Part shown: one piece after another, positions 2,993 through 37,241 of the stretch | Numbering within the stretch: the first letter of the stretch is position 1 | Layout: each line of letters begins with the position of its first letter | DNA from: Phycisphaera sp. | Lineage (GTDB): Bacteria > Planctomycetota > Phycisphaerae > Phycisphaerales > Zrk34 | Length of the DNA: 37,241 nt | Direction of reading: 5' to 3' | NCBI GenBank assembly: GCA_016125285.1 | Contig: WGMA01000078.1 | Coordinates: 1-37,241, forward strand | Notes under the pieces: generated by a model | The model's input: the letters and a program-made list of their open reading frames with translations, nothing else | The model's database searches: none | What the model was told of the DNA's origin: nothing | Made by a program: the position numbers and the translations under genes

Positions 2993-3008
2993 GGTGGCTC
3001 CTGCGCAG

Positions 3009-3073
3009 GTCAGGCTCAGCCTGACAACTTCGTGGGTTGTTTGCGTGTCGTGCCCTGTCAGGCGAAGCCTGAC
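3009..3073. repeat. Two GTCAGGC inverted-repeat hairpins
   Basis: GTCAGGCT-C-AGCCTGAC occupies 3009-3025 and GTCAGGC-GAA-GCCTGAC occupies 3057-3073. They fill the gap between the methyltransferase stop codon (3074-3076) and the beta-helix gene start. No run of T follows on the minus strand, so they are repeat hairpins rather than classical terminators. They could still protect 3' ends or slow transcription. Confidence 0.65.
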
Positions 3074-4243
3074 CTACAGACGCTGCGTGATCAACGCCCG
3101 CACCTGTTGGCCGAATCGTAGGACGAAGACCGTCAGATGTCGCTCGCCATTTCCACGGAGCTGCGCCGCGGTCTTGTCGGCGTCGACGGCCTTGCCGCGC
3201 GTCTTCACGTCGACGATCCCCGCGTCGAGCTCATGCAGTCGCTGCTTCACCCTGTTCATGCGCCACGGCATCTCGTCGATCAGCTCGAACGGCGTGACCC
3301 ACGGGCTGTCGATCAGCGTGTCGCTGCTGAGCAGCCCGAGCGCCGGGTGCAGCGCCGGGGCGTCGAGCTCGTCGCTCAGCACGCCGATCAGGTCTGCGCG
3401 CTCGACCGCCGGGTCGACCGCGAGCAGATAGCGGCGGGGCGATTCGTCGCACGGCGCGCCACCGGGCTCGCCGTGCAACGACACGTTGTCGGGCAGCCGC
3501 GTGGCGGTGCGCGTGTGTCGCGCGAGTCGGCCTGTCCACAGCACGGCCTGCACGAGCGTGCCGCCGCGGTTGATGATCTCCACCTCGCCGGGCGGCAGCG
3601 CGTCGAAGTCGACGCCCGGCCCGAGCTTGATCGCGCCGTCGGGGCACGCGGCGATCAATCGCTCGATCAAGTCAGGCCCGGGCTGCATGTCTTCGTATCG
3701 CCACAGCCGCCGCGTGTCGTCACGCCGCGACGGATCGATGTGAAACGCGCCGCCGTTGCCGACGAGCGCGCCGAGGTCGAGCGACTCGACGTCGGCCGCG
3801 ACGTCGTTGATCGTGAGGCCGTCACGCCGGGCGACCGCCGCGACGTTGTGATGCGCCATGGCGACCTTGTCGGCGTCCATGTCGACGAGCGCCAGATCGG
3901 TGATCGTGTCGATCCGCGCAAGTCCGATCGCGTCGCCGCCGATGCCGCAGCAGAGGTCGACCACGCGTGCGACGCCCGCCTCGACAAAGCGGCGCGCCTT
4001 GTGCTCCGCGACGTCGACACTGGTGGCCTGCTCCGCGCCGACGATGTCCGCGACCATGCGCGCCGCGTCGTCGCCGAACTTGTCCGCGAGCTTGCGCCGG
4101 GCCTTGGTCAGCTCGATCGCGCCGTGGACCAGATCGGCGTCCCACCGCTTGCGCAGGCGTGTGATCGCCGCGAGGTCGAAGTCCGCGATCGCCATCGCGG
4201 CGTCGAGCAGGCCGGGGTGTTCGAGCAAAATCTGCCAGTGCAT
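3074..4243 (-). CDS. Class I SAM-dependent methyltransferase with THUMP-like C-terminal domain
   Basis: 389 residues. A short helical N-terminal region is followed by a Rossmann methyltransferase domain with motif I VVDLCCGIGGDAIGLA (about residues 92-107), an acidic motif II (LALVDMDADKVAMAHHN) and the characteristic HIDPSRRDDTRR segment where catalytic residues of this family sit. The C-terminal third (SPWVTPFELIDEMPWRMNRV, then KQRLHELDAGIVDVKTRG) matches the small THUMP-like domain that follows such methyltransferases in planctomycetes and actinobacteria. The substrate is not established and is presumably an RNA or small molecule. The ATG at 4243 lacks a good Shine-Dalgarno but only 21 bp separate it from the metallo-beta-lactamase-fold gene upstream, so the two are probably one transcript. 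Confidence 0.82.
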   Translation of the reverse strand: MHWQILLEHPGLLDAAMAIADFDLAAITRLRKRWDADLVHGAIELTKARRKLADKFGDDAARMVADIVGAEQATSVDVAEHKARRFVEAGVARVVDLCCGIGGDAIGLARIDTITDLALVDMDADKVAMAHHNVAAVARRDGLTINDVAADVESLDLGALVGNGGAFHIDPSRRDDTRRLWRYEDMQPGPDLIERLIAACPDGAIKLGPGVDFDALPPGEVEIINRGGTLVQAVLWTGRLARHTRTATRLPDNVSLHGEPGGAPCDESPRRYLLAVDPAVERADLIGVLSDELDAPALHPALGLLSSDTLIDSPWVTPFELIDEMPWRMNRVKQRLHELDAGIVDVKTRGKAVDADKTAAQLRGNGERHLTVFVLRFGQQVRALITQRL

Positions 4244-11843: not shown

Positions 11844-12680
11844 ATGAGTTTTCCCGAGACCCACTACAGCCTGATCGACCGGCTGGTCCGCGAGGGCGCC
11901 GAACGCGACTGGGGCAAGTTCCTCGAGGCGTACTGGACGCCGCTGTGCGCCTTCGCCCGACGCCGCGCGGGCCTCAGCGTCGACGACGCCGAGGACGTCG
12001 CCGCGATGACCGTCGAGGTCCTGCTGCGCAACAAGCTGCTGGACCGCTGGGCGACGGATCGCTCCGCGAAGCTGCGCACGCTGCTGTGCACCGTCGTGCG
12101 TCGCGTGATGGCCAACCGGCTGCGCGTGCAGTCGGGCCGCCGCGAGCTGCTCGAAGAGCTCGGCCGCGAGCTGACCGAGCGTGACGACCTGCCGACGCTC
12201 AAGGCCGACGACGCCACCGAGGCCGACGTCGACGTGCTGTACGCCGCGTGGGTCGAGCAGCTGCTGCGTGACGCGGTGGGCCGCGTGGTCACCGAGCTGC
12301 GCGCCGACGGCAAGGAGCACTACGTGGCGGTCCTGCGGGCGCGCGTCTGCGACGGACTGACGATCAGGGACACCGCCGAACGCGTCGGGATCACCACCGC
12401 GTCGGTCGACAACCACTACCGCAGCATGCAGAAGCGCCTGCGCGACGCGCTGCAGACCGTGATGCACGAGCACGTCCGCCCCAACACCCCAGCGCGCTAC
12501 ATCGACACCGAGCTGTTCCGCGAATGGGCGGCCCTGGCCGAGTACCTCGAATCGCACGGCGGACTCGAAGACGCCATCGCCACCGCGTGCGCCGATGTCG
12601 CCCCCGCCGAGAACCCGCTGTCCGACACGCCGCCCGATTCCCCGCCCGACGCGACAGACCCCCCGGCGTCGGCGTCGTGA
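11844..12680 (+). CDS. ECF-type RNA polymerase sigma factor
   Basis: 278 residues. The sigma-70 region 2 domain spans about residues 20-95 (WGKFLEAYWTPLCAFARRRA, VDDAEDVAAMTVEVLL, LRTLLCTVVRRVMANRLR). Region 4 spans about 150-200, with the helix-turn-helix DGLTIRDTAERVGITTASVD followed by NHYRSMQKRLRDAL. A C-terminal extension of about 70 residues ends in an Asp/Pro/Ser-rich tail. Extended ECF factors beside Ser/Thr kinase genes are a known feature of planctomycetes, and the next gene here is such a kinase, so kinase control of sigma activity is a reasonable inference. No anti-sigma factor gene is visible. A weak promoter-like pair (TTGATG 11735, TCGTAA 11758) precedes it; I do not rely on it. 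Start ATG 11844 is the first sensible one; no strong Shine-Dalgarno. Confidence 0.88.
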   Translation: MSFPETHYSLIDRLVREGAERDWGKFLEAYWTPLCAFARRRAGLSVDDAEDVAAMTVEVLLRNKLLDRWATDRSAKLRTLLCTVVRRVMANRLRVQSGRRELLEELGRELTERDDLPTLKADDATEADVDVLYAAWVEQLLRDAVGRVVTELRADGKEHYVAVLRARVCDGLTIRDTAERVGITTASVDNHYRSMQKRLRDALQTVMHEHVRPNTPARYIDTELFREWAALAEYLESHGGLEDAIATACADVAPAENPLSDTPPDSPPDATDPPASAS

Positions 12681-12817
12681 ACGCCTCCACCGTCAGCCCC
12701 TGGTTTCCGACCGCCACGCGCCCGGCTTTGGTCCGCGCGATCGGTGGCAGGTAGAATGTGCCGAGTCTGGCACGTCCGGTGAGTATTCCGTCCGTCGTTC
12801 CCGGAGTAAAACGCGGC

Positions 12818-14863
12818 ATGAGCTTCGTCGTCGAAAAGGTCAAGCAGATGACCTGCGAGCAGTGCGGGCAGCCGGTCGACCATGCGTCGGTCCAGCCGCT
12901 GATGCACATCGTCTGCCCCTCCTGCGGCCACGAGCAGCGCGTCCCCGCCCAGTTCGACAACTACCTCGTCTACGAGCTGCTCGGCAAGGGCAACTTCGGC
13001 TTCGTGTTCCGCGCCAAGGACAAGGGCCTCGGACGCGACTTCGCGATCAAGATCTTCAGCGCGCGAGGCCAGGAGGCCGACGTCGTCGCCGAGACCGCGC
13101 TGCAGGAAGCCAGGGCCCTCGCGAAGCTCAACCACCACAACGTCGTCCGCGTGCACACGCTCGGCGAGTACCACGACAGCCGCTACATCGTCATGGAGCT
13201 GCTCGACGGCGGCTCGGCGCGCAACTTCACCGAGCCCGGCAATCAGCCCAGCGAGCTCGACGCGATCGTCCTCGGCATGTGCATCGCCAAGGGCCTGCGC
13301 ATGGCGCAGCGCGTCGGCCTCGTGCACATGGACGTCAAGCCCGGCAACATGCTCTACGACCGCGAGGGACACCCCAAGCTCATCGACTTCGGCATGTCCG
13401 CGCACGCCAAGCCCGGCGGCGACCTCGGCGTCGTCGGCACGCCGTACTACATCGCCCCCGAGACCGCCCTCGGCCGCGAGCCCGACTTCCGCGCCGACAT
13501 GTACAGCCTCGGCGCGTCGCTGTTCCACATCATCACCGGCCGGCCGCCCTTTGACGCCGAGGACACCCGCACGACCATCGGCCTGCGCCTCAAGCACGAC
13601 GCGCCGCTCGTCAGCGCATTCCGCGAAGGCCTGCACGACAAGACCATCGCGCTCATCGCCCGCATGCTCCGCCGCGAGCCCGACGAGCGTTACGCCAGCT
13701 ACGACGAACTGATCGAGGCGTTCCAGGAAGCGAAGCTGCAGGTGGAGTTCGGCGAGGAGCCGGACGACACGACGCCCGCCGCGCCGGCTGTTGATGTCGC
13801 CGCGCCACCTGTTGATGCCGCCGCGCCCGTCGCGCCCGTCGCGCCGGCGCCGACCGCGCGACCGAGTCACGTCCACGCGCCGCACGCCGCATCGATCGAT
13901 CGCGCCGCGGTGCAGGCCGAGGCCGCGGGCGCGTCCGCCGTCGTCTGGCTCGCCGCGGCGGTGCTGCTGCTGGCGATGGGCATCGTCGGGTGGGTCGTGT
14001 TCGGCGGGTCGACGATCGAGCCGGCGCCGCAGCGCCCGCCCGTCGTGCCGCGCCGGTCGAACACCACCGCGTCGCCGTCGGACCCCGCGCCCGTCGAGCC
14101 GTCGACCAACACCAACGCGGCATCCAATACGACCGAACCCAACGCCACGCCGCCCGACGCGCCGCCCGCGCCCGCCGACGTGTCGCCCGACGCCGACCTC
14201 GACAACATCCCCGGCCTGATCGCGCACTGGAAGCTCGACGGCGAGTCCGGCGGGTCCGTCGCCGACGTGCTCGGACACGCCAAGCCCGGCCTGTTCCTCG
14301 GCGAGGCCGACTGGCTCAAGCCCGGCCGCGTCGGCGCCGCCGCCGCGCGCTTCGACGGCAGCAGCTACATCGCCATCGACGACGCCATGCCCCGCGACGC
14401 CTACACCAAGTCCGCCTGGGTCCAACGCTACCACGGCGACCTGATGCACCCCGTCTTCTGCGGCGCCACCGGCCACGCGCTGATGATCTCCTACCTCAAC
14501 AGCTTCCGTCCGTCCGCCGGACACAACGGCCACTGGGACCTCGTCGTCGGCCCCACGCCCGTGCCGCCCTTCCGCTGGCAGCACCTCGCCGTCACCTACG
14601 ACCCCGCCGTCGCCGACGGCACGCTGACGCTCTACGTCAACGGCGACCCCGTCGGCAGCGCGACCGGCGTGCCGCGCCCCAACCCCGAGACCGAAATGTT
14701 CATCGGCACCCTCGGCCGCGCCTCGCGATTCAAGGGCCTCATCGACGACGTCCGCCTCTACGACCGCGCCCTGACACCCGACGAAATCCGTCGCCTCGCC
14801 GGCAACGCCATCACCGCCCCCGCGCCCGTCATCACCACCACGCCCGACGCACCGACGCAGTAG
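12818..14863 (+). CDS. Transmembrane Ser/Thr protein kinase with zinc ribbon and LamG-like ectodomain
   Basis: 681 residues from ATG 12818. GTG 12758 and ATG 12848 are alternatives; CCCGGAG lies about 12 bases before 12818. A zinc ribbon (Cys13/16 and Cys33/36) is followed by a Hanks-type kinase: GKGNFGFVF loop (57-64), Lys78 in AIKIF, catalytic loop HMDVKPGNML (His170, Asp172), DFG at 190, APE at 213-215, and FRADMYSLGASLFHIITGRP. The usual HRD arginine is Met, so it is a non-RD kinase and may not need activation-loop phosphorylation. An Ala/Pro/Asp-rich linker leads to a transmembrane helix (about 372-396), a Thr/Pro/Asn-rich stalk, and a LamG/concanavalin-like domain (about 464-672; IPGLIAHWKLDG, WQHLAVTYDP, FKGLIDDVRLYDRAL) outside the membrane. 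It likely senses a sugar or wall ligand and may signal to the adjacent sigma factor. Confidence 0.93.
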   Translation: MSFVVEKVKQMTCEQCGQPVDHASVQPLMHIVCPSCGHEQRVPAQFDNYLVYELLGKGNFGFVFRAKDKGLGRDFAIKIFSARGQEADVVAETALQEARALAKLNHHNVVRVHTLGEYHDSRYIVMELLDGGSARNFTEPGNQPSELDAIVLGMCIAKGLRMAQRVGLVHMDVKPGNMLYDREGHPKLIDFGMSAHAKPGGDLGVVGTPYYIAPETALGREPDFRADMYSLGASLFHIITGRPPFDAEDTRTTIGLRLKHDAPLVSAFREGLHDKTIALIARMLRREPDERYASYDELIEAFQEAKLQVEFGEEPDDTTPAAPAVDVAAPPVDAAAPVAPVAPAPTARPSHVHAPHAASIDRAAVQAEAAGASAVVWLAAAVLLLAMGIVGWVVFGGSTIEPAPQRPPVVPRRSNTTASPSDPAPVEPSTNTNAASNTTEPNATPPDAPPAPADVSPDADLDNIPGLIAHWKLDGESGGSVADVLGHAKPGLFLGEADWLKPGRVGAAAARFDGSSYIAIDDAMPRDAYTKSAWVQRYHGDLMHPVFCGATGHALMISYLNSFRPSAGHNGHWDLVVGPTPVPPFRWQHLAVTYDPAVADGTLTLYVNGDPVGSATGVPRPNPETEMFIGTLGRASRFKGLIDDVRLYDRALTPDEIRRLAGNAITAPAPVITTTPDAPTQ

Positions 14864-14929
14864 CCGATTCAACGCCGCACGCGCGAACCCCATAGTGGTT
14901 TGTACGTCCAACATCGAAGGGGTCAACGC

Positions 14930-16117
14930 ATGCGGAAGCACGTCACGCTCACCATCGCCGTCACCGTCGCGCTGCTCACCGGCGGCGCGACGCACGCCTG
15001 CCTCTGGGACAGCGACACGTTGGCGACCGAGGCGAAAGGTCTGCCCGGCGTCGTCGACATCATCGTCGGTCGCTTCGAGCGGAACCCGCCGCTGTACTAC
15101 GAGATGCGGCTCGAACGTGCGACGAAGGACATCGACACGAACCCCGCCGACCTCAACGCCTACGACGACGCGGCCACGTCCTGCGACCACCTCAACCGCG
15201 ACGACGATGCCATCGACTGGATGGCGCGCAAGAAGGCGCAACTCGACGACCTGACGCTGCCGCTCAAGCCCGACGATCGCAATGACCACACGTACCGCTA
15301 CTACGCGAACCTCGGCACGTTCTTCGCCCACCGCTGGGTCAAGGGCGGCGCGCACCGCGACAACCTCGACGACCTCCGCGAAGCCCAGCGCCTGATCGCC
15401 GCCGCGATCGAGATCAACCCCGACGCCCACTTCGGCCGCGAGAAGTTCCAGCTGATGGCGATCGAGTGGCTGATCGATCCGGCTGTCGGTCCGGAAGAGA
15501 TTCGGGAAGACGAACCGGCGTTGGCGAATCCTCCGATCGTGCAGATGATTCCGGTGACCAGCGATATCGATTCGACCGAAGCCATCAAGGGTATGACGGG
15601 CTTGATCGCGTTGGGCGCCGCGTGGCAGAGCGTTGACATCTTCGAGTCGCTCGGCAGTCACCTGCGGCATGCCGGTCATGCATCGCTGTCCTACGTCGCA
15701 CAGCTCCGTGCCGAAGAGTTGAAAGCTGCGGGTCGCGCCAGCCTGCATCCGGGCCGTAAGCAGTATGGCGGCGTGTACGGCGCATGGATCATCGACGAGT
15801 ACATGGAACAGATCGAGTCCTATTACCCGCTCGCCCGCGCCGCGGCGGACCAGTGGCTCGATCGTCGCACCGCGTACGTGCTCGAACGCCTCAAAGCCGG
15901 GCGTCACCCCGACACCGATCCGACATTCTGGGACGCGTGGGACGACGAACCGAAGCTGCCCGAGATGCCGGGGCTGCGGTCGAAGCTTGTCGCGTCGGTT
16001 CGACACGACCCGACCACGCTCACCGGGTCGCTGATGATTGCGGGACTGGTCGCATTGCTTGGCGGACTTTACCTGCGTCGCCGTCGGCGTCAGCGCAGCG
16101 CAAGCGTCGCGGCGTGA
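14930..16117 (+). CDS. Secreted, C-terminally anchored CLWD protein with TPR-like helices
   Basis: 395 residues. Start at ATG 14930 with AAGGGGT seven bases upstream, not the in-frame TTG 14900. The signal peptide MRKHVTLTIAVTVALLTGG ends at ATHA, leaving a mature N-terminus CLWDSDTLATEAKGLPGVVD. The CLWD start, followed by a stretch on residues leading to YEMRLERATK, recurs in planctomycete hypothetical proteins as I recall it; this needs a search to confirm. The central part is helical with TPR-like pairs (NAYDDAATSCDHLNRDDDAI, LREAQRLIAAAIEINPDAHF). A hydrophobic segment near the C-terminus (LTGSLMIAGLVALLGGLYL) followed by RRRRRQR looks like a sorting-type or simple membrane anchor. The gene follows the kinase by 66 bp in the same direction, so it may belong to the same transcript. 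Confidence 0.75.
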   Translation: MRKHVTLTIAVTVALLTGGATHACLWDSDTLATEAKGLPGVVDIIVGRFERNPPLYYEMRLERATKDIDTNPADLNAYDDAATSCDHLNRDDDAIDWMARKKAQLDDLTLPLKPDDRNDHTYRYYANLGTFFAHRWVKGGAHRDNLDDLREAQRLIAAAIEINPDAHFGREKFQLMAIEWLIDPAVGPEEIREDEPALANPPIVQMIPVTSDIDSTEAIKGMTGLIALGAAWQSVDIFESLGSHLRHAGHASLSYVAQLRAEELKAAGRASLHPGRKQYGGVYGAWIIDEYMEQIESYYPLARAAADQWLDRRTAYVLERLKAGRHPDTDPTFWDAWDDEPKLPEMPGLRSKLVASVRHDPTTLTGSLMIAGLVALLGGLYLRRRRRQRSASVAA

Positions 16118-16165
16118 TCGTTCTCCCCAATACATTTCGCGTGTCCCCCGAATCTTCGCCTGGTG

Positions 16166-22770: not shown

Positions 22771-22843
22771 AGCCACCTGCCGGACTCGAACCGGCGACCT
22801 GCTGTTTACAAGACAGCTGCTCTACCAACTGAGCTAAGGTGGC
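22771..22843 (-). tRNA. tRNA-Thr (anticodon TGT)
   Basis: 73 nt on the minus strand. Acceptor stem GCCACCT/AGGTGGC, D arm AGCTCAGTTGGTAGAGC, anticodon stem GCTGT/ACAGC with loop CTTGTAA (anticodon TGT, reads ACA), and T arm GCCGGTTCGAGTCCGGC. Discriminator base is T. The 3' CCA is not encoded, so a CCA-adding enzyme is needed. Confidence 0.97.
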
Positions 22844-23143: not shown

Positions 23144-25843
<2,700 letters not shown>

Positions 25844-25898
25844 ACCCCGGAAGCTCAGAACAACCGGAAGCGGGGGTCACTCATGGAAGGACTGGAAG

Positions 25899-27497
25899 AT
25901 GGCTGTTGAGTTCAAGCTGCCCGAGCTGGGCGAAGGCATCAAGGAGGCCGACGTCGTCGAGGTGCTCGTGTCCGAGGGCGACGTGATCGCCGCGAAGCAG
26001 GACGTGTTCGAGGCCGAGACGGAGAAGGCGTCGATGCCGATCCCGTCGAGCGTCGGCGGCAAGATCACCAAGATCCACATCAAGCCGGGCGACACGGTGA
26101 AGATCGGCCAGACGATCCTCACGATCGACGAGTCCGCGTCGCAGGACAACGGCAAGACGGCGAAGAAGGCCGCGCCGGCGTCCGAGGCGAAGGCGGAGTC
26201 GAAGCCGGCTGAGCAGGCCGTGCCCGCGTCGAGCGGAGGTGGTGGCGGTGCGACCGTCGACTTCAAGCTGCCCGAGTTGGGCGAGGGCGTGAAGGAAGCC
26301 GACGTCGTCGAGCTGCTCGTCGCCGAGGGCGCGACGGTCAAGAAGAACCAGGAAGTGATCGACGTCGAGGCCGAGAAGGGCTCGTTCGCCGTGCCGATCA
26401 ACGTTGGGGGGACGATCCGGAAGTTCCACGTCGCCAAGGGCGACACGGTCAAGCCGGGGCAGGTGATCCTGACGATCGAGACGAGCGGAAGCGCGGCGGC
26501 AGGCGCTGCGGCGAAGAGGCAAGCACCCGCGGCGCAGGAAGCGTCCGCATCGCCCGCCGCACCGACACCCGCGCCCGCCACGTCGAACCCCGCGCCGACC
26601 GGTCAGCCCGCCGGTGAACCCGCGCCGATCGCCGCCGCGCCCTCCGTGCGACACTTCGCCCGCGAGATCGGCGTCGACATCTACGACGTGACCGGCTCCG
26701 GCCCCGGCGGACGCATCACCGAAGAAGACGTGAAGGTCTACGCCCGCACCCGCGCCAAGTCCGGCGGGGGCGCGCCCGCGTCGGCCGCGCCGGACCGCGT
26801 CGTCCGCGAGCCGATGAGCAAGATCCGCAAGGTGACCGCGCGTCACATGGCCAAGTGCTGGGCCGAGATCCCGCACGTGACCCTGCACCACAAGGCCGAC
26901 GTGACCGAGCTCGAAGAGACGCGTCAGCAGTACAAGAAGTTCGTCGAGAAGAAGGGCGGCCGCCTGACGATCACGCCGATCTTCGTGAAGCTCGTCGCGT
27001 CGGGCCTGAAGGTCTTCCGCAACCTCAACGCATCGATCGACGTCGAGAAGGGCGAGGTCGAGTACCACAACTACGTCAACATCGGCGTGGCGGTGGACAC
27101 GCCGAAGGGCCTGGTCGTGCCGGTGGTTCGCGACGCGGACCGCAAGAGCATCATCGAGATCGCCATCGAGCTCGGCGAGATCTCCGAGAAGGCGCGCATC
27201 GGCAAGCTGACGCTGGAGGACATGTCCGGCGGTACGTTCACGATCACGAACCTCGGGTCGATCGGCACGGGTTTCTTCACGCCGATCGTCAACAGCCCGG
27301 AGGTCGCGATCCTCGGCATGGGCCGCGGCCACCGCGAGCCGGTGTGGAGCGAGGAGCGTCGCGACTTCGTGCCGCGTGACATGGCGCCGCTGTCGCTGAG
27401 CTTCGACCACCGTCTCGTGGACGGCGCGGACGGGGCGCGTTTCCTGCAGTGGATCGTCGAGGCGGTGGAGAAGCCGCTCGTGATCGCGATGATGTGA
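25899..27497 (+). CDS. aceF: Dihydrolipoyl acetyltransferase, PDH E2 component
   Basis: 532 residues. Forms the PDH core and moves the acetyl group from lipoyl arm to CoA. Two N-terminal lipoyl domains are present, with lipoylated lysines predicted at Lys43 (ETEKAS) and Lys160 (EAEKGS); both are preceded by nearly identical FKLPELGEG starts, so one duplicated the other. Ala/Pro-rich linkers follow each. The peripheral subunit-binding domain spans about 250-284 (VRHFAREIGVDIYDVTGSGP then GGRITEEDV). The catalytic domain ends with the active-site motif FDHRLVDGADG (His504, Asp508). It begins 55 bp after aceE, in the same operon. TTATCG-type promoters are not evident in that gap. Confidence 0.97.
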   Translation: MAVEFKLPELGEGIKEADVVEVLVSEGDVIAAKQDVFEAETEKASMPIPSSVGGKITKIHIKPGDTVKIGQTILTIDESASQDNGKTAKKAAPASEAKAESKPAEQAVPASSGGGGGATVDFKLPELGEGVKEADVVELLVAEGATVKKNQEVIDVEAEKGSFAVPINVGGTIRKFHVAKGDTVKPGQVILTIETSGSAAAGAAAKRQAPAAQEASASPAAPTPAPATSNPAPTGQPAGEPAPIAAAPSVRHFAREIGVDIYDVTGSGPGGRITEEDVKVYARTRAKSGGGAPASAAPDRVVREPMSKIRKVTARHMAKCWAEIPHVTLHHKADVTELEETRQQYKKFVEKKGGRLTITPIFVKLVASGLKVFRNLNASIDVEKGEVEYHNYVNIGVAVDTPKGLVVPVVRDADRKSIIEIAIELGEISEKARIGKLTLEDMSGGTFTITNLGSIGTGFFTPIVNSPEVAILGMGRGHREPVWSEERRDFVPRDMAPLSLSFDHRLVDGADGARFLQWIVEAVEKPLVIAMM

Positions 27498-27511
27498 TCC
27501 CGCGTTTAGCG

Positions 27512-27528
27512 ACGCCCCGCAGGGGCGT
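27512..27528 (+). promoter_or_regulatory. Intercistronic hairpin between aceF and lpd
   Basis: ACGCCCC-GCA-GGGGCGT, a perfect 7-bp stem with a 3-nt loop in the 58-bp gap, followed by GCTTTCC. The short T-run makes strong termination unlikely; it may set the lpd:aceF ratio by partial termination or by protecting the upstream mRNA from 3' decay. Confidence 0.5.
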
Positions 27529-27555
27529 GCTTTCCGACTTAGAAGGGTGTTCCCC

Positions 27556-28983
27556 GTGAGTGACTCCAACGGTAAACGTATCGCCGTCATCGGCGCTGGC
27601 CCCGGTGGGTATCCCGCCGCGTTCGAGGCCGCGCATCTCGGCTTCGATGTGACGCTGATCGACACGCGCGAGAACCCCGGCGGCGTGTGCCTGTACGTCG
27701 GGTGCATCCCGTCGAAGGCGCTGCTGCACGTGGCGAAGCTCGTCAACGAGGCGGCCGAGGCGAAGGCGTGGGGCGTCGACTTCGGCGAGCCGAAGATCGA
27801 CATCGACAAGGTCCGCGCGTTCAAGGACAAGGTCGTCAAGAAGATGACCGGCGGGCTGGGGCAGATGTCCAAGGCGCACAAGATCACCTTCGTGAAGGGC
27901 CGCGCCGCGTTCAACGACGCGAACTCCGTCACGGTGACCGACAACGACGGCAAGACGTCCACCGTCGCCTTCGACTACGCGATCATCGCCACGGGCTCGC
28001 GCCCGGCGATGCCGAAGATGTTCGACGTCGGCTCCGACCGCGTGATGGACTCGACCGGCGCGCTCGAGTTGCCGGACATCCCACAGAGCCTGCTCGTCGT
28101 CGGCGGCGGGTACATCGGCATGGAGATGGGCAGCGTGTACGCGGCGCTCGGGTCGAAGGTCACCGTCGTCGAGATGATGAAGCAGATCCTGCCCGGCGCG
28201 GACCCCGATCTCGCCGAGGCGCTGCACAAGCACGCGAAGAAGAAGTTCGAGGCGATCCTCACCGACACGCGCGTCACAGAGATGTCGAAGGACAAGAAGG
28301 GCATCAAGGTCAAGCTGCTCGGCCTCGACATCAACAACGAGGAACGCGTCTACGACCGCGTGATCGTGTCCGTCGGCCGCATCCCCAACTCGCAGAACCT
28401 CGGCCTGGAGAACGTGCCGGGCGTGAAGGTCGGCGAGCGCGGGTTCATCGAGGTCGACGCGCAGCGCCGCACCGGCGCGGACAACATCTACGCGATCGGC
28501 GACGTCGCCGGTGAGCCGGGCCTGGCGCACAAGGCGACGCACGAAGGCCTGACCGCCGCGAAGGCTATCGCCGGTGAGCCCGTCGCGTTCGACCCCGCGT
28601 GCATCCCCGCCGTGGTCTTCACCGACCCCGAGGTCGCGTGGGTCGGCCTGACCGAAACCGAGTGCCTCAACCGCAACATCCCGCACAGCGTGTCGACGTT
28701 CCCGTGGGCCGCGTCCGGCCGCGCCGCGACGCTCGGACGATCCGACGGCCTGACCAAGCTGATCTTCAGCCCGCTCGGCGATCGCCTGCTCGGCATGGGC
28801 CTCGTGGGTGTCGGCGCCGGCGACCTCATCGCCGAGGGCGCCCTCGCCATCGAGATGGGCGCGACCGCGATCGACCTCGCCCACACGATCCATCCCCACC
28901 CGACGACGAGCGAGACAATCATGGAAGCGGCCGACCTGCACCTCGGCTTCTCGGCGCACTACATTCCGCGTAAGAAACGGTGA
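27556..28983 (+). CDS. lpd: Dihydrolipoamide dehydrogenase (E3)
   Basis: 475 residues. FAD-dependent reoxidation of dihydrolipoamide with NAD+, shared by PDH and possibly other 2-oxoacid complexes. I start at GTG 27556 (VSDSNGKRIAVIGAGPGG), since AGAAGGG lies eight bases upstream; the GTG at 27547 would fall inside that signal. Visible are the FAD-binding GAGPGG, redox-active Cys45 and Cys50 in GGVCLYVGCIPSKALL, the NAD-binding VVGGGYIGMEMGSVYAALGS, the second FAD motif RTGADNIYAIGDVAG and the dimer-interface catalytic dyad His448/Glu453 in HPHPTTSE. The family norm at the redox loop is CLNVGC; Tyr replaces Asn here. Last gene of the PDH operon, convergent with the DUF1080 gene. Confidence 0.97.
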   Translation: MSDSNGKRIAVIGAGPGGYPAAFEAAHLGFDVTLIDTRENPGGVCLYVGCIPSKALLHVAKLVNEAAEAKAWGVDFGEPKIDIDKVRAFKDKVVKKMTGGLGQMSKAHKITFVKGRAAFNDANSVTVTDNDGKTSTVAFDYAIIATGSRPAMPKMFDVGSDRVMDSTGALELPDIPQSLLVVGGGYIGMEMGSVYAALGSKVTVVEMMKQILPGADPDLAEALHKHAKKKFEAILTDTRVTEMSKDKKGIKVKLLGLDINNEERVYDRVIVSVGRIPNSQNLGLENVPGVKVGERGFIEVDAQRRTGADNIYAIGDVAGEPGLAHKATHEGLTAAKAIAGEPVAFDPACIPAVVFTDPEVAWVGLTETECLNRNIPHSVSTFPWAASGRAATLGRSDGLTKLIFSPLGDRLLGMGLVGVGAGDLIAEGALAIEMGATAIDLAHTIHPHPTTSETIMEAADLHLGFSAHYIPRKKR

Positions 28984-30970: not shown

Positions 30971-31044
30971 GGGCGTTTAGCTCAGCTGGCTAGAGCGCCT
31001 CCCTTACAAGGAGGAAGTCGCGGGTTCGAGTCCTGCAACGCCCA
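30971..31044 (+). tRNA. tRNA-Val (anticodon TAC)
   Basis: 74 nt. Acceptor stem GGGCGTT/AACGCCC, D arm AGCTCAGCTGGCTAGAGC, anticodon stem CCTCC/GGAGG with loop CTTACAA (anticodon TAC, reads GTA), T arm GCGGGTTCGAGTCCTGC, discriminator A. No encoded CCA. It sits 68 bp after the esterase stop. Confidence 0.97.
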
Positions 31045-31325: not shown

Positions 31326-34300
31326 ATGTGGAATCTCCTCAACGGACGTGCGCCTTGGGATCGTCGTTACCGTCGTGTACTGCAGAAGCGTAAGGCGCGT
31401 GACCTGAGCCGGCGACGGGCCCGTCGCGACGCGGCCGTGGTGATGGAGGCGCTCGAGCCGCGCGTGCTGCTGTCGAGCACGCCGCTGGTGTTCCAGATCG
31501 ACATCGATTCGAGCACGGGCGGCGCGATCACGACGCAGGCCGGCTGGACGTCTCTCGACGCGACCGAGCCGAGCGAGGGCGACAACGTGTCGGTGATGGT
31601 CGGCGGCGTCAACTTCACCGCGACGGTGTTCAGCTCCGATGGCTCGCGCCAGCGCAATGCTCCGAACGACCTGACCAGTGACTTCATCTACGACGATGGC
31701 AGCGGCCAGGCGGTCGGCCTGATTGTCAGTGGCCTGCCCGCGGGGACGTACGTTGCTGAAGTCTGGGCGTGGGACAACGACTTCCCGGCGATCGGGCCTC
31801 AGATCGTAGGATGGATCGAGGGCGCTGGGGCCGAGCACATCGTGACCACGAGCGCGGTCCTTGACCCCGATAGTCCGACGTCGGCCTTCACGTTCGAGGC
31901 CAACGGCACAGACGACTACAAGATCTTTACTCGAGAGAACAATACTCAGAACGCTTCTCGTTTCAACGCGCTGCGTCTGACACGCGTGGTCGACGAGGCG
32001 GAGACGAACGAGGGCGATCCGGCGTTCGACATCGACGTGATCGGGGCGCCCGATGACCCGCAGTCGCTGCGCATCGCGGATTACGCTGACGCGATCCTGG
32101 CCGACGACCCGCTGTTCTATTGGCAGCTCAACGACGCCGACAAGAGCGACGGGGCGACCGCGGTCAACAGCGCGACCGGTCCGAGCAGCCTCGGCGCGGC
32201 CGGCGATGGTACGTATCTGGATGTGGTCGGCGATGTAACCGACGTGGCGATCGTCAGCACGAGCGGGGCGAGCGGCGCGGCGAGCATGGGCACGACGACG
32301 GCGACAACGGCGGGGGTCGGCGATGGCGTACTCGTTCCTCTGGCGGGCACGTTCCCTGGGGCCGCAGTGACTGCCGAAGGCTGGTTCCGTGGCGACGCAG
32401 CGCTCAACGCCGAGCCAACGTTCTTTTCCTATGCCATCTCGAGCATGAGCAGCAACAACTTCCTGTCCATCGTCCAAACCGACTTGGGCATCTTCATCGA
32501 TGGCACACGCTATTCGACGGGACTAAACGAGGCTGCTTTTCTAGACAATCAGTGGCATCATCTGGCGATTGCATGGGACAATGTTTCAGGCGACCTGAAT
32601 CTCTATCTGGACGGCGTGCAGCGGTATCACCGTGCGAATACAGAGATCGGCACCGTAATCGCCTCGACAGGGTCGTTCATGATCGGTCAGGAGCAGGATA
32701 GCCCCGGTGGCAAATTCGACAACACCCAGAAATTCCGCGGCGATGTCGACGACGTCGCGTTGTACGACAAGCAACTGACCGCCGACCAGGTCCTCGCGCA
32801 CTACAACGCGGCGAAGTCGGGCTTCGTCGATGTGACCGGCCTGGTGGGCGACCTGACGCTCAATCCCGACAGCTCGTTCACTTATGACCCCAGCGGCGCC
32901 GACGTGAACTTCGCGACGCCGGCGTTTGACGTGATCGACTACACGATCGTGACCGCCGTGGGCACGATCAGCGAGTCGGCCGTTGTGACCGTGCATGATC
33001 TGGACGCGACGACGGACGAAGACACGCCGGTAACGACGACGCCGTTGTATGTGGAAGCGGTCAACGAAGACGACCCGCTGGTCTACCTGCGGCTCGGCGA
33101 CGCGGACAAGTCCACCGGGGCGACTGCGGTGAACAGCGCGACCGGGCCCAGCAGTCTCGGCGCCGCGGGCGACGGCTCTTACCTCGGCGCCGTTGGTCAG
33201 GTCGCAGACGCGCAGATCCCGGGTGACTCGGCGGCGAGCATCGGCACAACCAACGCCGACGGCGTGCGTGTCGACTTCACGAATTCCTTCCCCTCGACCG
33301 CGCTGACCGCTGAGATGTGGGTGCGCGGCACGACCGCCAACAACACCGGCCAGCCCTCGTTCTTCTCCTACGCGGTCTCGGGCAGCGACAACGAGTTCCT
33401 GACATTCATCAACGGAACCGTCGCGATCTGGATTGACGGCTTGCAGATGACGACGAGCCTTTCCAAGGCGGCCGTGCTCGACGGCGACTGGCACCAGTTG
33501 GCGGTCACGTGGGCCAGCGCTACGGGCGTCGCCACGCTGTATTTTGACGGAGCGGTCGCCGACACGATTACGGGCTTCAAGACGGGCGCATCGCTGACCC
33601 AAACCGGTACGTTTATCGTCGGCCAGGAGCAGGACAGCGTCGGCGGCGGATTCAGCAGTACACAGAAGTTTCGGGGCGACGTTGATGAATTGGCAATCTA
33701 CGACCATGTGCTGTCTGATGACCGGATCCTTCAGCACTTCCTCGCCACCTCGCCGGAGTTCATTAACTTCATCAATGGCGACGCGGTGAGTGTCGGCGCC
33801 ACCGTGACGCTTGCCTCGGGCGCGGAGGTGACGTTGAACACCGACGGCACCTTCACCTACGACCCGACAGTTTCGTCAACGCTGGACGCGATGGAAACCG
33901 GTGATACGTTCATCGAATCGTTCCGCTACGCTGCCAGCGCCACCGACTACCGGGCCACGGTTCTCGCGCTCAACCCGGTCGCGTACTACACCTTCGATAC
34001 CGACAACATCTCCGGCAGCACCGTCGAGAACCTCGGTTCGCTCACGTCGAACACCGCCACGCTGAACGGCGCGTCGTTCACCGGCGCGACCGGCGGCCTG
34101 TTCGGCGGCGGCCTGTCGGTTGACGATGACGGCTCGGTGAACGAACTGCGGGTCGACAACGGCAACATCGACCTGGGCACGAATTGGACGATCTCGGCCT
34201 GGTTCCAGGACCTGCACGACACGAACAACTGGCGGACGCTGGCTCGCGGCGAAGGCGGCGACCACCAGATCATCGTCCAGAACGGCGCCAACAACCTCGG

Positions 34301-37241
34301 CATGTATGACAACGGTGGCGGCGCCTTCCGCGACAGCGGCTACGACCTGTTCCCCGGCGACACGACGTGGCACCACATCGCGGCCGTGGGCACCGGCGGC
34401 GACTCGGGACAGACCGACTTCTACATCGACGGCGTGTTCGTCGGCCGGTCCGATTCGGGCAGCATGACCGACATCGATTTCATCGGCAGTTACTCGAATC
34501 AGGTCTTTGCGCAGACGATCGACGAGTTCGCCGTCTTTGACCGAGCGCTGTCAACGGCTGAAATCTCGGCCCTGCTCGGCGCGCGGGCGGAGATTGTGGT
34601 CGAGGGCGTCAACGACGACCCGGTCGCCAATGCCGATGCGTTCGAGATCGACGAGAACTCGGTGCTCAACGTCGGGTACACGCTGCAGGACCTCAGCGGG
34701 CTGAGCAGCGGCAACTACGCGTTCGCCGCGGGTGGCGAGACCTTCGACGCCTACGTGGACAACGACGGCGCCAACGGCTGGCTGCTGGTCGGTCGCGGCC
34801 GCGAGGGCTGGGAGTTTGACACTGACGGTCAGGGTTCGGTCGACGCCGTGAACGACAACCTGGGCACCTCCGCGGCGTTCAATCCCGCGGCGTACAGCGA
34901 GGACCTCATCAACGACCTGCTGACCCAGGCGGGGATCGACCTGTCCAGTGTCGAGATCCGAATCCGGCGAGCGGCCGACCCCCTCGGCATCACCTGGCAG
35001 GAGGCCGTCTGGCGTCCTACAAGTCAGACGACCTGGACCTGGGAGTTCTCGACCAACACACTGAACAACAGCACGACCGGCGGCTACGACGTGGATTACG
35101 AGGTCCTCTCCGGCCCCGGCGCTGGTTTCCACGACACGACCAGCAACACGCTCGACGCGCTGGGGACGGTGGGATCAGACTCGGGCAACGACGCGACGCG
35201 AGTCTTCACCTGGTCTTGGAGCGGTCACGCCGGCGTGCGCGGATTCAGCTACGGCTCATCCGTGAACAACGGCGCGAACAACGCGACGTCGTTCTTCTGG
35301 GAAAGCGCCAACGAAGATCACGCCATCCCCTACGCCGAGATCTACATCCGGCCCACGGCGTCCGGCATGGTCGCCAGTCAGTTGGGTCTGCTCGCCAACG
35401 ACACCGACGCTGAGAGTCAGGCGCTGACCGTCGTCGGCGCCGCGGTCACGTCGCCCACGAACACCGGCGCGCCCATCACGTTCACGACGGCGATCGGCGC
35501 GACCGTCATCGTCAACGGCGACGGCACGTTCTCCTACGACCCGACGACATCCGCCACGGCGGGGGCGCTACTGGCCGGCGAGAGTCTCGTTGACACGTTC
35601 GAGTACCTCGTCGAAGACACGCAGGGCGGCTTGGCGACAGCGGTGGTGTCCGTGACGGTCAACGGCGTCAGCGATCCGGTCGACGATGCGTACTTGACCG
35701 ACGAAGATACAGCGCTTGTCTTCCCGACGCCCAACCTGCTGGACAACGACGCGCTGCCCACGGTGCTCGGAACCACCATCGGCTACTTCACCGGCTCCGA
35801 CCCGGGCGAGGGCCTCGATCTGTCCGGCGACTTCGTCTACGCGGTCAACGCCCGCGGTCCGGCCGTGGGTATGATCGGCGATGCGAACTTCACCGCCGAC
35901 ACCGCGCCGGGTGTGAACCTTTCGTCCAACCGAGAGATCCTCAACTGGGCCGCGCCCAACTACGACGGCGGTGATGGCGGTTCCGGCGGCGGCGCCGAGG
36001 GACCGCTCGAAACGATCATGCAATCCATCCGCTGGTCAACGGATCCGACGGATGTTGTTGTCGACTTGAACATGGACGTTGTGGCTGGCACGGAGTACAA
36101 GCTGCAGCTGCTCTTCGCCGACCTCTCAAACAATCGTGGCTTTGACATCTACGTCGATGGCGCTCTGGTCGTGGATAATTTCAGTTCCTCGGCTTACAGC
36201 GGTTCCTCGTCGACACCGACGGCTTCGACGGTGGTGACTCACACCTTCATCGCCACTTCGAACTCGCTCCAGATCGTGCTCGACGGCACGGGTGCTCCGT
36301 TTGCCGACCGCAACCCGATCCTCGACGGCTTCACGCTCGAGCGGGGGACGCCCGGCGGTGATCCGTTCGTCTCCGAGGTCGACGGCGATCCCGCGTACGT
36401 GAATACCCCGATCGTTCTGCCGTCAGGCGCTCTGCTGTTTGTCCTCGACAACGGCGACTTCATCTACGATCCGAACGGCGCCTTCGAAAGCCTCGACGCC
36501 GGCGACACCGCGACGGATACGTTCAACTATACCGCGTCGAACATCCTGAACAGCGGCTCCGCGGACGTCACCGTGACGATCGCCGGCGTCAACGACGCGC
36601 CGGACCTCGGCATCGACAACGCGACCGTGACGGTCGTCGAGACCGCCACCGCGCTCAACACCGGCACGTTCTTCGACGTGGAGGGGCAGAACACGACCAT
36701 CTCCGCTTCGCTCGGCACGATCACCTTCCAGACCGTCGGCAGCACCGGCACCTGGACCTGGACCTACACCACCGCGGACGGGCCGGCCGATTCGCAGACC
36801 GTGACGATCACCGCCGACGATGGCAACGGCGGCATGACGATGGAAACCTTTGATCTTGTCGTCACCAATGTCGCGCCGACGCTGAGCGTCACCAACGCCG
36901 AGGTCGAGGTTAACGAAGGCGACACGGCGATGAACACCGGGTCGTTCTCCGACATCAGCGCGCTCGACACCGTCACCATCACCGCCTCGATCGGTGACAT
37001 CGTGCAGGTCGGCACGAACCCGGGCACGTACACGTGGTCGTTCGATTCCACCAACGGCCCTGACGAGACGCAGACCGTCACTATCACTGCCACCGACAAG
37101 GACGGCGGCACGATGGAGGTCACCTTCGACCTGATCGTCAACAACGTCCCGCCGGATCTGACGATTGATGGGACGCCGATCATCGTGAACGAGGGTGACA
37201 CGGCGATGAACACCGGCACGTACACCGATCCGGGTCCGGGC
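31326..37241 (+). CDS. Giant LEPRVLLS surface protein with nested lectin modules (partial, open at right edge)
   Basis: 1972 codons with no stop to the window edge; ATG 31326 has AAGGG eight bases upstream. The N-terminus is highly basic and ends in MEALEPRVLLSS (LEPRVLLS, residues 43-50), a planctomycete surface-protein hallmark. Order by rough residue: 52-221 jelly-roll-like module; 261-496 LamG 1; 509-560 VCBS/cadherin-type strands (LNPDSSFTYDPS); 583-808 LamG 2; 837-870 VCBS strands (LNTDGTFTYDP); 880-1089 LamG 3; 1094-1115 GVNDDPVANADAFEIDENSV; 1120-1343 unidentified module with FDAYVDNDGANGWLLVGRGR; 1355-1460 VCBS (LLANDTDAESQ, VNGDGTFSYDP); 1483-1675 malectin-like; 1700-1760 VCBS end (DNGDFIYDPNGAF, VTIAGVNDAP); then 92-residue repeats with TAMNTG. 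It has little Cys and many Asp/Asn/Gly, typical of Ca2+-binding extracellular adhesins. It is probably exported and binds glycans. The gene end, C-terminal anchor and full length are outside the window. Confidence 0.9.
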   Translation, partial: MWNLLNGRAPWDRRYRRVLQKRKARDLSRRRARRDAAVVMEALEPRVLLSSTPLVFQIDIDSSTGGAITTQAGWTSLDATEPSEGDNVSVMVGGVNFTATVFSSDGSRQRNAPNDLTSDFIYDDGSGQAVGLIVSGLPAGTYVAEVWAWDNDFPAIGPQIVGWIEGAGAEHIVTTSAVLDPDSPTSAFTFEANGTDDYKIFTRENNTQNASRFNALRLTRVVDEAETNEGDPAFDIDVIGAPDDPQSLRIADYADAILADDPLFYWQLNDADKSDGATAVNSATGPSSLGAAGDGTYLDVVGDVTDVAIVSTSGASGAASMGTTTATTAGVGDGVLVPLAGTFPGAAVTAEGWFRGDAALNAEPTFFSYAISSMSSNNFLSIVQTDLGIFIDGTRYSTGLNEAAFLDNQWHHLAIAWDNVSGDLNLYLDGVQRYHRANTEIGTVIASTGSFMIGQEQDSPGGKFDNTQKFRGDVDDVALYDKQLTADQVLAHYNAAKSGFVDVTGLVGDLTLNPDSSFTYDPSGADVNFATPAFDVIDYTIVTAVGTISESAVVTVHDLDATTDEDTPVTTTPLYVEAVNEDDPLVYLRLGDADKSTGATAVNSATGPSSLGAAGDGSYLGAVGQVADAQIPGDSAASIGTTNADGVRVDFTNSFPSTALTAEMWVRGTTANNTGQPSFFSYAVSGSDNEFLTFINGTVAIWIDGLQMTTSLSKAAVLDGDWHQLAVTWASATGVATLYFDGAVADTITGFKTGASLTQTGTFIVGQEQDSVGGGFSSTQKFRGDVDELAIYDHVLSDDRILQHFLATSPEFINFINGDAVSVGATVTLASGAEVTLNTDGTFTYDPTVSSTLDAMETGDTFIESFRYAASATDYRATVLALNPVAYYTFDTDNISGSTVENLGSLTSNTATLNGASFTGATGGLFGGGLSVDDDGSVNELRVDNGNIDLGTNWTISAWFQDLHDTNNWRTLARGEGGDHQIIVQNGANNLGMYDNGGGAFRDSGYDLFPGDTTWHHIAAVGTGGDSGQTDFYIDGVFVGRSDSGSMTDIDFIGSYSNQVFAQTIDEFAVFDRALSTAEISALLGARAEIVVEGVNDDPVANADAFEIDENSVLNVGYTLQDLSGLSSGNYAFAAGGETFDAYVDNDGANGWLLVGRGREGWEFDTDGQGSVDAVNDNLGTSAAFNPAAYSEDLINDLLTQAGIDLSSVEIRIRRAADPLGITWQEAVWRPTSQTTWTWEFSTNTLNNSTTGGYDVDYEVLSGPGAGFHDTTSNTLDALGTVGSDSGNDATRVFTWSWSGHAGVRGFSYGSSVNNGANNATSFFWESANEDHAIPYAEIYIRPTASGMVASQLGLLANDTDAESQALTVVGAAVTSPTNTGAPITFTTAIGATVIVNGDGTFSYDPTTSATAGALLAGESLVDTFEYLVEDTQGGLATAVVSVTVNGVSDPVDDAYLTDEDTALVFPTPNLLDNDALPTVLGTTIGYFTGSDPGEGLDLSGDFVYAVNARGPAVGMIGDANFTADTAPGVNLSSNREILNWAAPNYDGGDGGSGGGAEGPLETIMQSIRWSTDPTDVVVDLNMDVVAGTEYKLQLLFADLSNNRGFDIYVDGALVVDNFSSSAYSGSSSTPTASTVVTHTFIATSNSLQIVLDGTGAPFADRNPILDGFTLERGTPGGDPFVSEVDGDPAYVNTPIVLPSGALLFVLDNGDFIYDPNGAFESLDAGDTATDTFNYTASNILNSGSADVTVTIAGVNDAPDLGIDNATVTVVETATALNTGTFFDVEGQNTTISASLGTITFQTVGSTGTWTWTYTTADGPADSQTVTITADDGNGGMTMETFDLVVTNVAPTLSVTNAEVEVNEGDTAMNTGSFSDISALDTVTITASIGDIVQVGTNPGTYTWSFDSTNGPDETQTVTITATDKDGGTMEVTFDLIVNNVPPDLTIDGTPIIVNEGDTAMNTGTYTDPGPG
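36603..37241 (+). repeat. 92-residue (276-bp) tandem repeats in the giant gene
   Basis: The motif TALNTGTF/TAMNTGSF/TAMNTGTY has its Asn at residues 1778, 1870 and 1962, exactly 92 apart. Each unit is an Ig/PKD-like fold with ETQTVTITATDKDGG-type strands. The third unit is cut by the window edge, so more copies may follow. Confidence 0.88.

Follow-up and report, generated by a model that had tools for sequence, protein, structure and literature searches.

Layout of the giant gene

The window, which is the whole stretch of 37,241 nucleotides analysed and constitutes an entire contig (C33) of its assembly, ends in a giant reading frame on the plus strand. Upstream of this frame lie three consecutive genes at 23144-28983 (+), carrying pyruvate dehydrogenase E1, 2-oxoacid acyltransferase (E2), and pyridine nucleotide-disulphide oxidoreductase (E3-like) domains, along with a tRNA-Thr gene at 22771-22843 (-), a tRNA-Val gene at 30971-31044 (+), about 280 bases ahead of the giant gene, and a frame of 1212 amino acids at 12497-16135 (-) without any Pfam match at an E-value of 1e-4. 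The features of the giant gene are listed below with residues counted along the frame; scaffold-profile positions refer to a profile of 101 positions whose 44 seeds are intact domains taken from 19 proteins other than this one.

31326-37241, plus strand: giant frame, 1972 codons, no stop, open at the 3' end
31440-31490, plus strand: LEPR-XLL motif region (LEPRVLLS), residues 39-55; NCBIfam LEPR-8K, 21.1 bits (cut-off 17)
31479-31991, plus strand: N-terminal domain, residues 52-222; weak NF038127 match, 17.1 bits (cut-off 29)
31989-32072, plus strand: possible N-half of scaffold unit A, residues 222-249
32076-32819, plus strand: LamG 1, pentraxin-like, residues about 251-498; Pfam Pentaxin/Laminin_G_3
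32823-33011, plus strand: possible C-half of unit A, residues 500-562; partial scaffold-profile match of 3.8 bits only
32997-33056, plus strand: N-half of unit B, residues 558-577, TTDEDTPVTTTP
33057-33749, plus strand: LamG 2, pentraxin-like, residues about 578-808, near the NDxDxDG loop; Pfam Pentaxin at 672-808
33756-33938, plus strand: middle piece of unit B, residues 811-871; scaffold profile 30-81, 17.6 bits
33939-34583, plus strand: LamG 3, at the last hairpin loop, residues about 872-1086; between FRYAAS and EIVVEGVND, in a frame with three Laminin_G_3 stretches
34584-34619, plus strand: C-terminal strand of unit B, residues 1087-1098
34617-34676, plus strand: N-half of unit C (DENSVLN), residues 1098-1117
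34677-35357, plus strand: fibrinogen-like module, residues about 1118-1344
35358-35681, plus strand: C-part of unit C, residues 1345-1452; Big_9, 39.3 bits alone, profile 22-89
35679-35756, plus strand: N-half of unit D, residues 1452-1477, DEDTALVFPTPNLLDND
35757-36365, plus strand: malectin-like module, residues about 1478-1680
36366-36599, plus strand: C-half of unit D, residues 1681-1758; scaffold profile 43-101, 35.7 bits
36603-37241, plus strand: C-terminal repeats, residues 1760-1972, cut by the contig end

The window shares its last 141 bases without a mismatch with the end of contig C31, and its last 100 bases recur on contig C5 in an identical stretch that stops 41 bases short of the contig end, indicating that the assembler met a shared repeat at the contig end and that the giant gene was cut there. 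Three giant genes, the present one (37101-37241) and its paralogues L019 on C5 and L020 on C31, share this C-terminal repeat over 100-141 identical bases and are cut in or near it. The paralogue on C5 has a C-terminus 55% identical to residues 1740-1972. The LEPR-XLL motif region near the N-terminus exceeds the LEPR-8K cut-off, which assigns the product to the LEPR-XLL proteins, and no Pfam family passes its cut-off in residues 52-222.

Against Pfam, the whole frame matches Pentaxin (1.3e-47), Laminin_G_3 (4.2e-45, three stretches), Big_9 (2.6e-9), Cadherin_4 (1e-8), and Malectin (5.9e-4), with Big_9 (38.3 bits) and Cadherin_4 (36 bits) exceeding their curated cut-offs. The initial annotation had read the frame as cadherin-like elements in their normal order, each interrupted by a module at a named place. 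The motif starts bear out this order, with DEDTPVTTTP at residue 564, GTFTYDP at 841, FRYAAS at 866, and EIVVEG at 1089 in the first half, and DENSVLN at 1109, LLANDTD at 1355, LLDNDAL at 1471, and FVSEVDGD at 1681 in the second. Together with the Pfam matches they confirm that ligand-binding modules interrupt cadherin/Big_9-like folds where the initial annotation placed them. Of the families it proposed to search, LamG and the cadherin-like scaffold (Big_9, Cadherin_4) pass their cut-offs, whereas Malectin stays below its own.

LamG 1 and LamG 2 are pentraxin-type as judged by sequence, with the Pfam Pentaxin profile recovering both in two stretches at 162.5 bits (cut-off 25). LamG 2 matches PDB pentraxins, including neuronal pentraxins and C-reactive protein (CRP), by sequence with a best E-value of 8.2e-18, and its model matches human CRP by fold at 3.8e-12. 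The GQEQD stretch of LamG 2 is common to the three top-listed PDB pentraxins, and residues such as these bind calcium in CRP. Between LamG 1 and LamG 2, only the latter keeps the D-N pair. Both modules thus resemble CRP and the neuronal pentraxins in matching Pfam Pentaxin, and LamG 2 also in its GQEQD; they differ in lying inside a bacterial rod protein. The module at residues about 1478-1680 is assigned as malectin-like only, its Pfam Malectin score of 20.3 bits lying under the cut-off of 23. It has matches of 42-46% identity in one genome of the same family, and its model yields CBM-type structural matches in the VIA comparison (Z 5.4-6.1).

The module at residues about 1118-1344, left unassigned by the initial annotation, passes the cut-off of no Pfam or NCBIfam family, Fibrinogen_C included. 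Three proteins on viral contigs of IMG/VR (L201-L203) match it at 27-28% identity over query residues 7-229 of 239, share its NDATRxFTWSWSGH motif, and pass Fibrinogen_C at 24.4-25.1 bits (cut-off 22) over profile positions 15 to 66-69 of 221. On the strength of these relatives the module is called fibrinogen-like, a designation kept short of Fibrinogen_C membership. No relatives besides itself were found in 392 genomes of the phylum or in the plasmids searched, and a PDB sequence search returned chance lipase matches only. The likeness to the viral-contig proteins extends over nearly the whole module, with the difference that the domain ends a 298-aa protein in L201, whereas here it interrupts a scaffold fold. 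The L201 protein (2779-3675 of its contig) appears fibre-like by eye in its N-terminus. Truncated cadherin-like matches beside an unassigned stretch may mark ligand-binding modules; here this clue led to the fibrinogen-like module missed by Pfam and NCBIfam.

Probable split scaffold units and their joins

In the splicing test, each module was cut out in silico, and the spliced unit and its C-side fragment were scored against Pfam. The best Big_9 stretch of the whole frame begins at profile position 21 (residue 1353), in the C-part of unit C; splicing raises this unit from 39.3 bits (22-89) to 50.7 bits (1-89) with Big_9 and from 28.3 to 50.4 bits with Cadherin_4. Unit B rises from 17.1 to 25.5 bits with Cadherin_4 and from 19.8 to 24.1 bits with Big_9, passing both cut-offs, and its middle piece with short flanks lies below both. 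Spliced unit D scores 27.3 bits with Cadherin_4, the 15.3 bits of its C-half fragment coming from the start of the next repeat; with Big_9 the fragment reaches 20.9 bits, but no match is listed for the spliced form. Unit A gives no Pfam match, alone or spliced. Splicing thus increases the Cadherin_4 score in three of the four units (B, C, and D) and the Big_9 score in B and C.

Against the scaffold profile, the pieces of units B, C, and D follow one another in order and complement each other at adjacent positions: unit B joins at 27|28 and 81|82, unit C at 17|19, and unit D at 23|24. A free search of the joins placed that of LamG 1 inside the lectin and let the C-half after LamG 3 begin at residue 1072, within the tail of that module. 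No nested pair emerges in this protein when plain hmmsearch hits are paired.

Chance was gauged in two ways. The small half and its insert were shuffled 1000 times, a procedure with low power for short halves, and the joined score was reached by 1 shuffle for unit C, 24 for unit D, 59 for LamG 2 (N-half of unit B) and 95 for LamG 3 (C-terminal strand of unit B), both marginal, and 570 for LamG 1, so that the possible N-half of unit A is not supported there. A background test, added after the shuffle test, fixed the position of the small half and scored 6000 windows from 6945 stretches without scaffold hits; the score of the small half was reached by no window for units C and D, by 13 for LamG 2, by 28 for LamG 3, and by 90 for LamG 1. 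The two tests together mark units C and D as clear, unit B as likely, and unit A as doubtful.

By these sequence criteria, the fibrinogen-like and malectin-like modules appear clearly nested in units C and D, nesting of LamG 2 and LamG 3 in unit B is moderately supported, and that of LamG 1 in unit A is doubtful. LamG 1 is not upheld as a clear case; unit A shows no splicing gain, 570 shuffles, and a join inside the lectin. Residues 558-1098 seem to form one fold interrupted twice, first by LamG 2 and then by LamG 3. The tests of units C and D, and moderately those of unit B, agree with the earlier suggestion that insertions fall at more than one loop.

Paralogues and other genomes

An uninterrupted domain in L019 is 54% identical to spliced unit C (64/119). 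The same paralogue holds five PA14-type modules (five Pfam stretches), each between a DTFTYT-like strand and the last strand of its unit, and its five C-halves are reached by 1, 50, 5, 0, and 0 of 6000 background windows and by 0, 244, 12, 0, and 0 of 1000 shuffles. The second C-half (50/6000 and 244/1000), which fails the shuffle test, is therefore weak. L020 holds two interrupted units with 0/1000 shuffles each, whose joins at 48|50 and 53|54 point to a further loop (positions 48-54), though their plain hits overlap in the profile. Two observations by eye concern the paralogous giants, namely a PKD-like domain at residues about 1440-1790 of L020, apparently broken up by a LamG module ahead of its last strand, and RTX-like GGDGDDRI repeats at the end of L021, a minus-strand frame.

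Relatives elsewhere were collected by a genome scan with a three-row LamG alignment, used in place of a mixed LamG alignment too divergent for the purpose, and the best 80 of 171 relatives formed the set of loci. In these best 80 of 171, 78 proteins contain 165 LamG hits; 121 have no scaffold hit near, 21 of the 165 stand beside a full-length scaffold domain (8 of the 21 between two), and 2 are nested, one (L115) from Chlorobium and the other (L118) from an Oceanospirillaceae bin. In both, the module sits at the NDxDxDG loop by reading, with N-halves reached by 0/6000 windows. Pairing of plain hmmsearch hits among 86 proteins gives 6 pairs, one each in L115 and L118 and four in L019, of which one skips a neighbouring domain.

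A survey within the same order covered 38 frames from 40 regions, six from this genome, and found 131 of 150 scaffold hits at full length and 16 truncated at one end, a number that falls to 8 when more than 60 unassigned residues are required. Of these 8, the three in L174 and those in L186, L190, and L182 were read, the others belonging to L162 and L195; on reading, the modules of L174, L186, and L190 look nested. L174, a protein of the same family of bacteria, carries three at the site used in unit C (22, 0, and 1 of 6000 windows), and the last hairpin carries LamG-like modules in L186 (4 of 6000) and L190 (5 of 6000). The truncated hit in L182 is not convincing as nesting on reading. In a distant planctomycete giant (G352), C-type-lectin-like and LamG modules seem to be nested as well, by eye. 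Judged by sequence, nesting recurs at the same loops in the paralogue and other genomes, yet it is a minority arrangement.

The identities of modules and of the scaffolds around them do not always run together. LamG 1 and LamG 2 are 53% identical, with scaffolds at 30%; in L019, units 1 and 3 agree at 59% in scaffold and 35% in module, and units 1 and 5 at 63% in module and 41% in scaffold. Some exchange of modules independent of the scaffold would be the simplest reading, and different rates of change could contribute. The idea, put forward from the motif order, that modules were taken up independently fits these comparisons, but units 1-2 and 3-4 of L019 agree in both scaffold and module (57/63% and 58/65%), as a joint duplication would give.

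Models, mechanism, and known systems

AlphaFold models cover residues 553-1102 and 1094-1766, with a mean pLDDT of 64.8 and 53.4, respectively. The first was fed a lectin-only alignment, other alignments having been dropped as MAFFT laid scaffold rows on the modules, and its scaffold was consequently left without support; the core of LamG 2 is confident, and the scaffold of unit B lies largely below pLDDT 50. In the second, parts of the scaffold C-parts are confident and the inserts mostly are not. Unit C reaches about 88-94 for residues 1384-1443, with lower values before and an N-half largely below 50. The C-half of unit D reaches about 80-92 for residues 1694-1753 and is below 50 for most of 1674-1692, with its N-half at about 35-70 and within the span superposing on Ig-like folds.

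Foldseek against the PDB ranks RTX-adhesin structures (9ybq, 6x5v, and 5k8g) at positions 1, 2, 3, and 6 for the 1094-1766 model, none of its matches reaching an E-value of 0.001 (9ybq, 6.4e-3). The title of 9ybq names the FrhA peptide-binding domain with an adjacent split domain, and 6x5v and 5k8g are the peptide-binding domain of M. primoryensis. In the VIA comparison, 9ybq_A aligns at Z 7.7 over 93 residues and 3.2 A with model residues 359-666, that is 1452-1759, spanning both halves of unit D, the range giving the first and last aligned residues only. Chains aligning over a compact range of their own, such as 8s80 (16-110, 77 residues, 2.6 A), cover the same span. Rows within 1 of Z 7.7 are tied, including a phage neck protein at Z 6.9, and a Z below 8 may reflect a common arrangement. 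For unit C, the rows begin at model residue 248-250, excluding the N-half. Homology was built into the unit D model, since its alignment came from intact tandem domains that MAFFT stretched across the malectin gap. The model lends low-confidence support to both halves of unit D superposing on one fold. Of the structure prediction proposed for residues 550-1760, this is the part that speaks for nesting; confidence in the scaffold is low in unit B and the N-half of unit C.

The explanation we consider probable is a giant rod adhesin with several split cadherin/Big_9-like sandwiches, each carrying an inserted ligand-binding module. It builds on the order and complementarity of the pieces, the splicing gains, the uninterrupted paralogue of unit C, and the recurrence at the same loops, and it extends to a folded state that would correspond to the low-confidence model of unit D. 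The chain would form the first strand or strands of a sandwich and exit through a loop, where a complete module (pentraxin-like, LamG, fibrinogen-like, or malectin-like) would fold before the chain returns to finish the sandwich. With both ends in one loop, the module would project sideways from the rod, its binding face outward. Such a multivalent rod could attach to sugars or other ligands, perhaps with calcium. The product is probably a cell-surface or secreted adhesin, and adhesion to polysaccharide or other cells is likely for such modules; its surface location, ligands, and adhesive role are all inferred.

The initial annotation named an alternative, which appears unlikely, in which the modules are strung between scaffold domains and the flanking pieces are degenerate cadherin-like remnants no longer folding together. 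Remnants need not complement each other, whereas units B, C, and D consist of pieces that meet at adjacent positions of the profile. None of the 6000 background windows reaches the small-half scores of units C and D, other genomes use the same loops, and in the unit D model the span across the module superposes on a single fold. What keeps this alternative in consideration is that a place beside whole domains is commoner (21 of the 44 LamG hits near a scaffold against 2 nested, among the best 80 of 171 relatives), that unit A shows no splicing gain and a weak N-half, and that, away from the C-parts of units C and D, the models have little confidence in the scaffold.

Split Ig-like domains have been described in the RTX adhesins FrhA (Vibrio cholerae), AhLap (Aeromonas hydrophila), and MpIBP (Marinomonas primoryensis), in which a first strand is followed by a ligand-binding domain and then by the bulk of the Ig-like fold, PA14-type binders occur among the modules, and sideways budding of the module from the rod is the explanation given (PMC12077191, PMC10865825). 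If a split Ig-like domain is a fold discontinuous around another domain, units C and D qualify by sequence, unit B moderately so, and the model speaks for unit D; the discontinuity proposed in the initial annotation is supported to this extent, but not clearly for LamG 1 in unit A. The likeness to RTX adhesins lies in a sandwich discontinuous around a ligand-binding domain, with such structures heading, among ties, the PDB rows for the low-confidence unit D model. The difference lies in the protein itself, a LEPR-XLL giant of a planctomycete, in its inserts (pentraxin-, LamG-, malectin-, and fibrinogen-like), in the use of three loops, and in one fold apparently split twice. Planctomycetes are not mentioned in the available part of PMC12077191, and no description of split Ig-like domains in planctomycetes was found among the open-access titles and abstracts listed. 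Planctomycete giants such as that of Stieleria varia have predicted cadherin-like adhesion, calcium-binding, and carbohydrate-binding domains (PMC7717043), and planctomycete giants or fibrillar adhesins are described without nesting in the parts seen of PMC7717043 and PMC8286594. These cadherin-like and tandem-95 giants share the giant size and the kinds of domain, the difference being that the domains are listed there without nesting. The split-domain design itself is already known from RTX adhesins; what differs here is the LEPR-XLL planctomycete giant, the other modules, and the additional loops.

That the protein is simply a planctomycete RTX adhesin, fully covered by the published description, is quite unlikely. 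The design principle is the same, and the paralogous giant L021 ends in RTX-like repeats by eye; RTX adhesins of the named genera carry RTX repeats and a type I signal (PMC12077191), whereas this protein starts with a LEPR-XLL motif, and the C-terminus where such repeats and a type I secretion signal would sit is missing at the contig end. It is most improbable that each N-half strand completes the preceding or following domain by strand exchange, since split as well as continuous Ig-like folds match residues 1452-1759 of the unit D model by superposition, even though the N-half, a short stretch of about 17-27 profile positions, comes immediately after the preceding domain and has no partner visible in the model.

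Under the split-sandwich explanation, the design would be extended from RTX adhesins to planctomycete giants, where family searches show only fragments. A more tentative proposal, which we regard as a serious possibility somewhat short of probable, is that the planctomycete LEPR giants form a general cassette system, in which the link before LLANDTD, the NDxDxDG loop, and the last hairpin serve as a few fixed loops of one repeated sandwich for interchangeable ligand-binding modules. Exchange of these modules would not depend on the scaffold, and one sandwich could take up two of them on two loops. If modules swap into fixed loops, these giants would record how adhesins change specificity. In L046 (G200:C50), LamG and PA14-like modules alternate by eye with repetitive beta-helix-like stretches. 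Genome G200 was set aside as a case of nesting, its modules standing on a different, repetitive scaffold, and L046 perhaps follows the same budding principle on that other scaffold.
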